NCBI RefSeq assembly: GCF_034387475.1
Contig: NZ_JAXCIL010000002.1
Coordinates: 2,294,001 to 2,358,000, forward strand
DNA: 64,000 nt
Direction: 5' to 3'
From: Pseudomonas sp. Teo4
GTDB taxonomy: Bacteria > Pseudomonadota > Gammaproteobacteria > Pseudomonadales > Pseudomonadaceae
A model generated the notes under the pieces. It had not been told where the DNA came from. It did not search any database and worked only from the letters and a program-made list of their open reading frames with translations. Below are positions 1,089 to 6,388 of the stretch, piece by piece. The translations under genes were made by a program, and so were the position numbers. Positions within the stretch are counted from its first letter, which is position 1, and each line of letters starts with the position of its first letter.

Positions 1089-2321
1089 ATGTCTGCTCGT
1101 CCTTCCGCTTCTTCCGCGCCGGATGCGCGTGCCCAGTTCCTTGAGCTGCTGGGCGCCGCCATTCACGGCAATACCTTGGTCAAGCTGGTGCTGGCCCGCC
1201 ATGTGGGGGCCGACCAGACCTTGCAGCGGATCATCGCCAAGCCGGTACAGGTGAAAGGGCAGCCCAATCTGTCGCTTGTGTACCGCCATCAGACTCGTGA
1301 CATCACCCGTAACGTGCCACTGGACCAGGCCCTGACGCTGGTTGCCGAGCTGTTGCCGGAGAGTTTTCGCAATGCCCACCTGTTCGATGGCGACGGCGAA
1401 GTACAGCTGACCTTCAGCAAGAAGGGCAAGCCGATGCTGCAGCGCCATGGCGCCCAGGCACCACGGGAAACATCGGTGAGCACTGGCCATGATCGGGAGA
1501 AGAAGCGTTACCTTGAGTTGTCGCGTCCATTTCTGCGTGATCTGGGCGTAACCGATGCCCAAAGTGCACTGATCCCGTCCATGTCGCGTAAGTGGAAGCA
1601 GATCAACAAGTTCATCGAAGTCTTCGATCACGCCCTGGCCAATGCGCCGGTATCGGCAGAGCAGTTGTTGCGGGTGGCCGACTTCGGTTCGGGCAAGGGT
1701 TACCTGACCTTCGCCATGCATGACTACCTGCGCAATACGTTGGGCCGTGAGGCTCAGGTGACGGGCGTGGAGTTGCGTCAGGACATGGTCGACCTGTGCA
1801 ATGGCGCGGCTTCACGCCTGGAGCATCCGGGCCTGGAGTTCCAGTGCGGCGACGTCCGCAGTGTGGTGCCGGAGGCCATCGAAGTGATGATTGCCCTGCA
1901 TGCGTGCGACATCGCCACCGACTACGCCATTCACACCGGTATCCGCTGCAATGCCGCGATCATCATGTGCTCGCCGTGCTGCCACAAGCAGATCCGCCCG
2001 CAACTGCACAGCCCGGGGCTGCTGCAGCCGATGCTGCAATATGGCCTGCACCTGGGGCAGCAGGCCGAGATGCTCACCGACAGCTTGCGTGCGTTGTATC
2101 TGGAAGCCTGTGGCTATGAAACCAAGGTGTTCGAATTCATCTCGTTGGAGCACACCAACAAGAACAAGATGATTCTTGCGGTGAAGCGCCAGCAGCCGGT
2201 GGACAATGGCGCGTTGCTAGAGAAGATCGCGCAGCTCAAGGCGTTCTATGGGGTGCAGGAGCATTGCCTGGAGACGTTGTTGAAGGCGGATGGCCTGATA
2301 GACCTTGGTGCCAATAACTAA
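1089..2321 (+). CDS. SAM-dependent methyltransferase (Methyltransf_32-like)
   Basis: This is a 410-residue class I methyltransferase. Motif I is clear (VADFGSGKGYLTFAMHDYL, about residues 196-214), followed by an acidic residue ending strand 2 (VTGVELRQDMVDLC). A Cys pair in SPCCHKQIRPQL (about residues 297-308) is characteristic of the METTL25/GSTCD-like family, whose members are predicted RNA or protein methylases. The N-terminal 130 residues form a separate basic region of unknown function. The substrate cannot be deduced. The gene is alone on its transcript or follows the TPM gene; nothing in its context points to a pathway. Confidence 0.75.
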   Translation: MSARPSASSAPDARAQFLELLGAAIHGNTLVKLVLARHVGADQTLQRIIAKPVQVKGQPNLSLVYRHQTRDITRNVPLDQALTLVAELLPESFRNAHLFDGDGEVQLTFSKKGKPMLQRHGAQAPRETSVSTGHDREKKRYLELSRPFLRDLGVTDAQSALIPSMSRKWKQINKFIEVFDHALANAPVSAEQLLRVADFGSGKGYLTFAMHDYLRNTLGREAQVTGVELRQDMVDLCNGAASRLEHPGLEFQCGDVRSVVPEAIEVMIALHACDIATDYAIHTGIRCNAAIIMCSPCCHKQIRPQLHSPGLLQPMLQYGLHLGQQAEMLTDSLRALYLEACGYETKVFEFISLEHTNKNKMILAVKRQQPVDNGALLEKIAQLKAFYGVQEHCLETLLKADGLIDLGANN

Positions 2322-2432: not shown

Positions 2433-2450
2433 GGTTGTCACTTGACAACC
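2433..2450. promoter_or_regulatory. Perfect palindrome, candidate operator of the 2484-3271 gene pair
   Basis: GGTTGTCA, a 2-nt spacer, then TGACAACC: an exact 8-bp inverted repeat centred 42 bp before the first start codon of the pair. A TTGACA hexamer lies within it (2442-2447), so a bound protein would block a promoter there. Downstream the second gene encodes a DNA-binding protein. Autoregulation by it is an inference. Confidence 0.55.
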
Positions 2451-2483
2451 TGGCTGTCGATGGCCCACTCTGGAGAGAAGCTG

Positions 2484-2762
2484 ATGTCACGTCCCAGTCA
2501 TGCCAAGAAAGAGGTTGAGCAGGCCTTGAGGCACGCTGAGTCGAAGGGCTGGAAAGTCGTAGTCGGTGGTGGGCATTGTTGGGGGAAGTTGTACTGTCCG
2601 TTCAACGATGCCGAATGCCGCTGCGGGGAGTTTTGCATTACCAGCGTCTGGAGCACTCCAAGAAACCCTGGCACTTTTGCTCGTCAGCTTCGGCGTGTCG
2701 TTGACCGTTGTTCAGGCGGCACGTTGACCAAAGGGATATCCAGTGCTGGTGAGGAGCAGTAG
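2484..2762 (+). CDS. Small HicA-like hypothetical protein (candidate toxin)
   Basis: The gene encodes 92 residues with no family name I can give with certainty. The start at 2484 is chosen because GGAG lies 8 nt upstream. The predicted layout is helix (KKEVEQALRHAESKG), strand (WKVVVGGGH), strand (WGKLYCP), then strand plus helix (CITSVWSTPRNPG, ARQLRRVVDRC). This order, with a glycine-histidine turn after the first strand, resembles the dsRBD-like fold of HicA mRNA-cleaving toxins, in which the GSH histidine is catalytic. Four cysteines (in YCP, ECRCGEFC) are unlike HicA and could bind metal. It lies 2 nt upstream of the HTH gene, which fits a toxin-antitoxin pair. The toxin role is inferred from fold pattern and layout only. 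Confidence 0.5.
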   Translation: MSRPSHAKKEVEQALRHAESKGWKVVVGGGHCWGKLYCPFNDAECRCGEFCITSVWSTPRNPGTFARQLRRVVDRCSGGTLTKGISSAGEEQ

Positions 2763-2764
2763 CG

Positions 2765-3271
2765 ATGGAATATGAGTTCACCCTCAAGTATCAACTGCTT
2801 GATGAAGTCGACACCGATACGCTTCTGGAACAGTTGGCCGAAGCAGGATGCGATGATGCGCTTGTCGGTGTAGGCCAGCCAGGCCGCCTGGCGCTGGATT
2901 TTGCTCGAGAGGCTACATCTGCCCGAGAGGCCATCGAGAGCGCGCTCAAGGACGTTCACAGTGTTTTACCAGGGGCGCAATTGATCGAGGCAACGCCAGA
3001 CCTCGTAGGGCTTACCGATGTGGCGGAAATGGTGGGGGTGTCGCGTCAGAACATGCGCAAACTGATGCTTGCCCACATACGTAGCTTCCCGGCCCCCATC
3101 CACGAAGGCAGCACTTCGCTCTGGCACCTTGCGGATGTTCTGCTCTGGTTACAGGCACGAGGAAGCTATTCAGTGGCCCAGGAGACTCTGGAACTGGCTC
3201 GAGTAGCGATGACGGTCAATGTATCCAATTTGCACGCGCGTGTTTTCGGGGGGGCGCAGCGTTTGGTCTAG
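2765..3271 (+). CDS. HTH DNA-binding protein (candidate antitoxin)
   Basis: This is a 168-residue protein in two parts. Residues 1-80 form a small alpha/beta domain (EFTLKYQLL, ALVGVGQPGRLALDF, then a helix REAIESALKDV) that could contact the partner protein. Residues about 82-135 form a MerR/AlpA-like winged helix-turn-helix (LTDVAEMVGVSRQNMRKLML followed by SLWHLADVLLWLQARG). A GGAG site 8 nt before the ATG overlaps the end of the upstream gene, so translation is probably coupled. The arrangement of toxin-like gene, DNA-binding gene and upstream palindrome matches an autoregulated toxin-antitoxin module. It could instead be a simple regulator. Confidence 0.55.
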   Translation: MEYEFTLKYQLLDEVDTDTLLEQLAEAGCDDALVGVGQPGRLALDFAREATSAREAIESALKDVHSVLPGAQLIEATPDLVGLTDVAEMVGVSRQNMRKLMLAHIRSFPAPIHEGSTSLWHLADVLLWLQARGSYSVAQETLELARVAMTVNVSNLHARVFGGAQRLV

Positions 3272-3295: not shown

Positions 3296-4318
3296 TCAAT
3301 GGCGCGAAGGAGGCACCTCTATCGCCAATTCCGCCAGCCCCATCGGGTGGGTGCTGGCATCGAAGAAGTACACTTCAGTCCCTGGCAAGTCACCGAACTT
3401 GTCCATGAAATGCTGCTTCTGATTGATCACTGATGCTTCACTGAGCGGCCGGATGGCAATCGACAGATGCGCCGGCCGTGCCTGGCGAATGGCTTCGAGC
3501 AAATGCTGGTCGGTACTGTCCAGGTGTTGCCCGAACAGGCATAGGCCTTGGCTTTCCTGCGCCAGTTGCGACAGGCACCAGCCGAGGTAGTCCGAGTTGC
3601 GGATGGCGCGCAGTTTTTCGTCGCTGCGTTCTTCGTTGACGAACAGTGGCACTTCACCTGGAATATTCACGGCAAAACCGTCGAGCAGCTCGGCGCATTC
3701 GGCGCTGCGCTGGCGGGTGCTGCCGTCAGGCAGCTTGAGCAGGTGCAGGCCGCCGTGCAGGTGCATCACCCGGGTGCCTTCGCTGCGGGTACGGCGCAGG
3801 TCGAAGAAGCCTTGCTCATCGAACAGCGCAGCGAAGCCTTGCGGGGCGTGTTGCATGGCCCACGGCAGAACAAGGTCGTAGTTGCTGGTGTAGACGCTGC
3901 GGTATTGGCGCAAGGCCAGGTTGATCGAAGCCTGCGTGGTCGTTGGCATCAGCGGCCAGGGCAGGTGCACGGTGCGCACTGCGTGGATCAGTGCTTCCTT
4001 GATCGAGTAATAGCGGTTCAGGGGCGCAGTGGAGTTGATCGCCAGGGCGGCGTTGGCCCGAACGGTATGGTTGAGGGTGCTGAGCACCGGCTCGAACAGT
4101 TCCGTGCCGAGGGACTTGAACAGGGCCTGGTCGCTGACGCCAAGACCTTTCTTGCGACCCGCGCGTTGGGCTTCCTCGAACAGCGAAAAGTAGCCGAACG
4201 GTTTCCACAGTGCACGGCTGGCACCGTTCCCCAACAGCAGGGCGTCGCAGGGGTGGCGTTGGTTGAGATCGGGCCAGGTGGCAAGGTGGGCGTCGAGTGC
4301 GGGCATGCGAAAGTCCAT
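3296..4318 (-). CDS. DUF4917 protein with SIR2-like motifs
   Basis: This is a 340-residue protein that I recognise as DUF4917. It shows the motif order of SIR2-like Rossmann proteins: LLLGNGASRAL near the N-terminus (dinucleotide binding), YTSNYDLVLPWAM near residue 145 (compare NYD in SIR2_2 proteins), VMHLHGGLHLL near residue 190 (the HG of the catalytic loop) and LFGQHLDSTDQHLLEA near residue 260. Stand-alone SIR2-like proteins are often NAD+-consuming effectors in phage defence, but no function is shown for this one. Two starts are possible: ATG at 4318, or ATG at 4306, which has GGA 7 nt upstream. It is convergent with the candidate toxin-antitoxin pair, 24 bp apart. Confidence 0.7.
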   Translation of the reverse strand: MDFRMPALDAHLATWPDLNQRHPCDALLLGNGASRALWKPFGYFSLFEEAQRAGRKKGLGVSDQALFKSLGTELFEPVLSTLNHTVRANAALAINSTAPLNRYYSIKEALIHAVRTVHLPWPLMPTTTQASINLALRQYRSVYTSNYDLVLPWAMQHAPQGFAALFDEQGFFDLRRTRSEGTRVMHLHGGLHLLKLPDGSTRQRSAECAELLDGFAVNIPGEVPLFVNEERSDEKLRAIRNSDYLGWCLSQLAQESQGLCLFGQHLDSTDQHLLEAIRQARPAHLSIAIRPLSEASVINQKQHFMDKFGDLPGTEVYFFDASTHPMGLAELAIEVPPSRH

Positions 4319-4396
4319 TCGGTGGAGCGGGGGCGGGGCGACTTTAGCATGTCATGCACTGCGAGGGTTGGTGGTTACCCGAAGGACTTTGGCTGG

Positions 4397-4424
4397 CCCA
4401 ATCGCCGGCTTGCCGGCGATTGGG
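4397..4424. repeat. REP palindrome, family 1 (single copy)
   Basis: CCCAATCGCCGGC and its reverse complement form a nearly perfect hairpin around TT. It carries the family-1 core GCCGGCTTGCCGGC but lacks the GTGGGA tail seen in the other copies. It lies between the DUF4917 start and the end of the SulP gene and could also act in transcript termination. Confidence 0.8.
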
Positions 4425-4452
4425 CTGGATAGCAGCCCTTTACAGCTGATAT

Positions 4453-6314: not shown

Positions 6315-6388
6315 TGGAGCGGGTAGAGGGAATCGAACCCTCGTCGGAAGCTTGGGAAGCTACTGTTCTACCATTAAACTATACCCGC
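6315..6388 (-). tRNA. tRNA-Gly (CCC anticodon)
   Basis: This is a 74-nt cloverleaf with the encoded CCA end at 6317-6315. The acceptor stem GCGGGTA pairs with TACCCGC, the T arm contains GGTTCGATTCC, and the anticodon loop reads TTCCCAA, giving anticodon CCC, which reads GGG. The anticodon stem (GTAGC/GCTTC) has one T-T mismatch at its second pair, compared with a fully paired stem in the E. coli homologue. It is transcribed alone and followed by a clear terminator at 6248-6267. Confidence 0.95.

Follow-up and report, generated by a model that had tools for sequence, protein, structure and literature searches.

A HicA-like protein and an excisionase-type winged-helix partner as a probable autoregulated toxin–antitoxin pair in Pseudomonas sp. 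Teo4

Two adjacent genes of Pseudomonas sp. Teo4 probably form an autoregulated toxin–antitoxin module that resembles type II HicAB in its working but not in its antitoxin. The pair lies on the forward strand of a 64,000-nucleotide stretch (contig NZ_JAXCIL010000002.1, positions 2,294,001 to 2,358,000; hereafter the window, in whose numbering coordinates are given). It consists of gene A (ATG at 2484 to TAG ending at 2762), encoding a HicA-like presumed toxin of 92 residues, and, after a gap of 2 nt, gene B (ATG at 2765 to TAG ending at 3271), encoding a presumed antitoxin and autorepressor of 168 residues. A first-pass annotation of the same DNA had described this arrangement, together with a palindrome containing TTGACA just upstream, and we verified both the coordinates and the sequence. 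Our reading of the pair as an autoregulated toxin–antitoxin module follows from the linkage of the two genes, their unequal decay and a conserved operator, all of which agree with the toxin–antitoxin architecture that the annotation had proposed.

A scan of genome contigs returned 163 loci for A, the best 80 of which were taken for linkage counts. B was located directly downstream of A in 79 of these 80 loci and the remaining one ended at a contig edge, bearing out the co-occurrence that the first-pass annotation had suggested checking across genomes. Where both genes were intact, the modelled start of B followed the stop of A by 4 nt in 63 of 89 loci and by −1 nt in 11 of 89. The two genes thus have the tightly linked, two-gene operon arrangement of type II toxin–antitoxin systems.

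The two genes decay unequally. We found nine genome loci in which A was broken or lost and B was intact, compared to none with an intact A and a broken B among the loci examined. At one of the nine, A was broken by an in-frame stop (L016), and at another, in the same chromosomal place as in the window, the front of A was lost along with half of the operator (G045); the others were G171, G350, G500, G564, G702, G083 and the second copy of G281. The stop in G564 is a TGA where most aligned rows have tryptophan, a codon that may be read otherwise. Left out of this count were three loci at contig edges (L062, G387 and G345, with B itself cut by the edge in the first two), two genomes with both genes damaged (G546 and G650), two plasmid loci (L242, with a short A, and L243, with A in two frames) and two loci whose frames matched B in its ferredoxin-like half alone and near which no A was found (L154 in G549 and L155 in G582). 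Also left out was an SSU5-like Escherichia coli plasmid (L241, 2456–3016) in which the front of B was shortened and no A was present where phage SSU5 has both genes. Short matches to the helix-turn-helix part only (G325, G172, G175, G724 and G513) were not taken as B. A phylum sample contained 15 genomes with both genes intact and a class sample 9 more; the same was true of 8 other relatives and of 78 among the 80 genome loci, and these sets may overlap. Because B has nearly twice the length of A, neutral damage should fall on B more often. Loss of A with retention of B is the pattern predicted for a type II module, in which the toxin is lost and the antitoxin kept, although some of the damage may be due to draft sequencing error.

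The putative operator is the palindrome GGTTGTCA-CT-TGACAACC at 2433–2450. A perfect palindrome of 8 + 8 bp is not rare on its own, with about one expected in 64 kb by simple counting, and a repeat search requiring arms of at least 12 did not list this one. It stands above chance because it recurs upstream of A in relatives and has one site in its own genome (a single match at up to 1 mismatch in 6.5 Mb; control, 0). Of 154 A loci, 153 had 150 nt of upstream sequence, giving 103 distinct regions. GTTGTC-N4-GACAAC was present in 91 of the 103, starting 48 nt before A in 67 of those 91, and TTGTCA-NN-TGACAA was exact in 78 of the 103. The distant members L108, L151 and L012 had other palindromes at a similar distance. 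Judged by this conservation, the palindrome noted upstream of the pair in the first-pass annotation is likely to be an operator.

The position of the palindrome relative to the presumed promoter is also conserved. TTGACA, the presumed −35 box, lies in the right operator arm (2442–2447, forward strand) and was in place in 37 of 43 clustered upstream regions; in 21 of these 37, a hexamer with at least four of six matches to TATAAT followed at a spacer of 17 nt, compared to 0–4 regions for the other spacers tried. The usual string in relatives is CATACT, directly followed by GGAG, 7 nt and ATG. The window has CACTCT at the −10 position (2466–2471, forward strand), a poor match that abuts GGAG (2472–2475, forward strand), the presumed ribosome-binding site of A. 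A promoter scan of the window listed none, so the promoter may be weak here. Transcription typically starts 6–8 nt after the −10 hexamer, so in many relatives the transcript would begin ~3–5 nt before the ATG of A and lack the GGAG. An operator at the promoter, as in type II toxin–antitoxin modules, is thus indicated by conserved sequence.

That A is HicA-like is supported by several weak but agreeing lines. Its predicted secondary-structure order, alpha-beta-beta-beta-alpha, is the order of HicA, which resembles a double-stranded RNA-binding domain. Among its structural neighbours, HicA-type chains ranked 1, 4, 7, 11, 13 and 15, all as weak matches, and HicA-like phage proteins ranked 3 and 4 in a viral structural list. 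The strand and helix order read by the first-pass annotation, and the fold search against HicA that it had called for, thus both favour likeness to HicA. A GGGH turn spans residues 28–31 of A, and His31, which was invariant in 70 of 70 aligned rows, follows the first strand as the conserved histidine does in HicA; its catalytic role is presumed. A profile alignment set His31 on the HicA histidine (P = 0.00035, with a probability of only 37%), and a profile of 14 A proteins scored higher against HicA than all 200 column shuffles (21.3 compared to 21.1 for the best shuffle). A Foldseek search of A against the PDB gave nothing at E 0.001, no solved structure was a credible sequence match for A, and neither A, at E up to 10, nor any of 20 members, at E up to 1, matched the Pfam HicA family (PF07927). 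The same genome carries a separate Pfam HicA match (G000:C1:3410795-3410938, L230; 30.8 bits, cut-off 27), which is of the GSR rather than the GSH type.

The first-pass annotation had counted four cysteines in A. A has six (residues 32, 38, 45, 47, 51 and 76), of which C76 is invariant, but four of them do form a cluster: C38, C45, C47 and C51 were kept in 69, 66, 64 and 68 of 70 aligned rows, respectively. In distant relatives, C45, C47 and C51 are lost, whereas H31, T58, P59 and C76 remain.

The model of B has three parts: a ferredoxin-like N-terminal domain, an excisionase-type winged helix (residues 83–132) and a long C-terminal helix. The N-terminal domain is modelled with the order beta-alpha-beta-beta-alpha-beta, and the topology of HicB, taken for comparison from the account in PMC10865869, is absent from the model. 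The C-terminal part would provide a DNA-binding domain, as in HicB, but the winged helix is of the excisionase type. Of 14 B members, 6 matched Phage_AlpA (best E only 0.084). No solved structure was a credible sequence match for full-length B, one search listing the excisionase 8c3t at E 0.19. AlpA excisionases are small, single-domain winged-helix proteins; B, with three parts in 168 residues, is not. Going by its model, B is an antitoxin architecture different from HicB. Membership in standard HicAB, which the first-pass annotation had already doubted, was rejected on the topology of B and the missing Pfam HicA match of A.

Several known systems come close to the pair. Type II HicAB of class 3, in which HicB has a C-terminal helix-turn-helix (as described by Gerdes 2024, PMC10865869), shares several features with it: a toxin gene placed first with a short gap, an alpha-beta-beta-beta-alpha toxin with a conserved histidine, an antitoxin with a C-terminal DNA-binding part and a palindromic operator at a promoter near the toxin start. 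Unlike that class, A lacks a Pfam HicA match and has a long insert between strands 2 and 3 that holds the cysteine cluster, and B combines an excisionase-type winged helix with a long C-terminal helix. Compared with the AlpA-type excisionases of guaA islands (GIsul2, 8c3t), B adds the ferredoxin-like domain and the long helix and sits behind A, with a separate AlpA-cluster gene alongside in 34 loci. The phages SSU5 and Cyrano carry the same genes in the same order (A 42–44% and B about 33–35% identical), but there the cysteine cluster is largely lost and another palindrome lies upstream.

The pair is not without labels, as the first-pass annotation had it. In PADLOC (PADLOC-DB 2.0.0), A matched the profile PDC-M06A (E 8e-46) and B the profile PDC-M06B (E 4e-76), with the adjacent genes matching both, and the Cyrano record annotates its pair as HicA toxin and putative antitoxin HicB. 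The toxin–antitoxin layout, HicA-like fold, operator and departure from standard HicAB proposed by that annotation stood; ‘unnamed’ did not. The entry PDC-M06 is a phage defence candidate with no described function in the library used; the window pair is a member, to which our analysis adds the operator, the decay pattern, the folds and the mobile setting. In PHROGs, A belongs to phrog_5923 (unknown) and B to phrog_2620 (excisionase and transcriptional regulator). A PADLOC MTase_I match of B (E 0.001) was treated as chance. Our literature search found no paper naming PDC-M06 or PDC-M06A, and none of those returned by combining AlpA, HicA, excisionase and antitoxin was evidently about this pair, judged by titles and the starts of abstracts; the papers searched showed no assay of RNase activity, growth arrest or anti-phage activity for it. 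For Pseudomonas putida, one catalogue describes 13 toxin–antitoxin loci, two of them unnamed (PMC7280312).

A often travels with mobile elements. It was present in 9 of 95 relatives, including the genome of the window, all within the genus; in 18 of 299 genomes of the phylum sample, one as a 20-residue fragment at a contig end; in 17 of 369 genomes of the class sample; and on 154 of 72,556 plasmid records. Of four plasmids opened, the cyanobacterial, alphaproteobacterial and enterobacterial ones had B directly after A, and the planctomycete one had A followed by a 97-residue gene with no credible match to B. Viral contigs, when scanned, yielded a single locus, at which both genes were intact. 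A profile search retained 3,165 clustered A relatives from 3,397 candidates, with no Pfam domain among the 120 matches listed. An integrase-cluster gene was found in the fetched flank of 56 of the 80 loci, ending within 600 nt before A in 49 (median 64 nt), and two cluster members that we checked were tyrosine integrases. Of these 56 loci, 34 had a guaA-cluster gene and 34 an AlpA-cluster gene; one member of each was checked, and that of the AlpA cluster matched Phage_AlpA (E 4e-13). GIsul2 is described as a guaA island that carries its own alpA (PMC9376610).

In the window, the pair is flanked by a methyltransferase gene (1089–2321, forward strand) and a DUF4917 gene (3296–4318, reverse strand; Pfam E 4.5e-32, with a weak SIR2-like match), the latter matching the PADLOC candidate PDC-S21 (E 2e-107). 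At locus L180 of a congeneric relative (G003), the methyltransferase gene (84% identical) and the DUF4917 gene adjoin and the pair is missing, so the pair is accessory at this chromosomal place. An intergenic, perfect 14-bp inverted repeat with a 2-nt centre (GCCCAATCGCCGGC/GCCGGCGATTGGGC) lies at 4396–4425, and the sole tRNA gene found in the window, for tRNA-Gly (CCC), lies at 6315–6388 on the reverse strand.

An alternative is that the pair controls excision of integrative islands: B would be an excisionase of the AlpA type or would regulate the integrase, A would assist as a small helper, and the palindrome would serve in regulation or recombination. We consider this quite unlikely: a separate AlpA-cluster gene accompanies the pair in 34 of the 56 integrase loci, A is repeatedly lost while B stays, and the pair also occurs without an integrase in a Pseudomonas chromosome and on plasmids and phage-plasmids. 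The separate AlpA-cluster gene and the integrase-free copies ruled out an excision cassette as the sole explanation. A might instead be no toxin at all but a metal-binding or regulatory partner whose cysteine cluster holds a metal and tunes B as a repressor. This would suit the retention of the four clustered cysteines in 64–69 of 70 rows, but we judge it very improbable, as three of them disappear in distant relatives that keep H31, T58, P59 and C76, the single operator in the genome points to no wider regulon and repeated loss of A with B kept would be unexpected for a needed partner.

A further alternative keeps the same toxin–antitoxin machinery, and is compatible with our reading, but places its selected role in abortive infection against phages instead of carrier maintenance. 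The PADLOC candidate status of both the pair and its DUF4917 neighbour fits such a role, as do a report of a HicA domain newly validated for defence in a different system (PMC13092281) and the argument of Gerdes 2024 for a defence role of HicA domains. On the other hand, most PDC entries are described as candidates that lack validation (PMC12988326), two other PDCs were reported inactive in one test (PMC12409345) and the presence of the pair on phage-plasmids and plasmids is just as compatible with maintenance. We regard the defence role as a real but lesser possibility; the benefit may lie in carrier maintenance, phage defence or island control.

Under the favoured toxin–antitoxin reading, A would be the toxin and would most likely arrest translation as an RNase, with His31 as the presumed catalytic residue. 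B would bind and silence A, probably via its ferredoxin-like domain, dimerise via the long C-terminal helix and, through its winged helix, repress the promoter that has its −35 box in the palindrome. Where the transcript lacks the GGAG of A, derepression would give mostly B, and expression of the pair is perhaps antitoxin-biased; the P2 promoter of E. coli hicAB is described as yielding mostly antitoxin (PMC6957337). The likely benefit would be that the carriers of the pair (islands, plasmids and phage-plasmids) are maintained. More speculatively, and with doubt that all of it holds together, an excisionase-type DNA-binding protein may have turned antitoxin by way of a ferredoxin-like, toxin-binding domain. 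Its operator-embedded, almost leaderless promoter would upon derepression make antitoxin and hardly any toxin, in convergence with E. coli hicAB P2, and islands, plasmids and phage-plasmids in several phyla would have acquired the pair. Directly behind a guaA-island integrase, it could tie excision to toxin release.

The relatives of A are numerous, yet the pair has a database label only. If our interpretation is true, it would add an antitoxin architecture next to HicB, account for a cargo that integrative islands and phage-plasmids commonly carry and offer a clean test of the repeated evolution of antitoxin-biased promoters.
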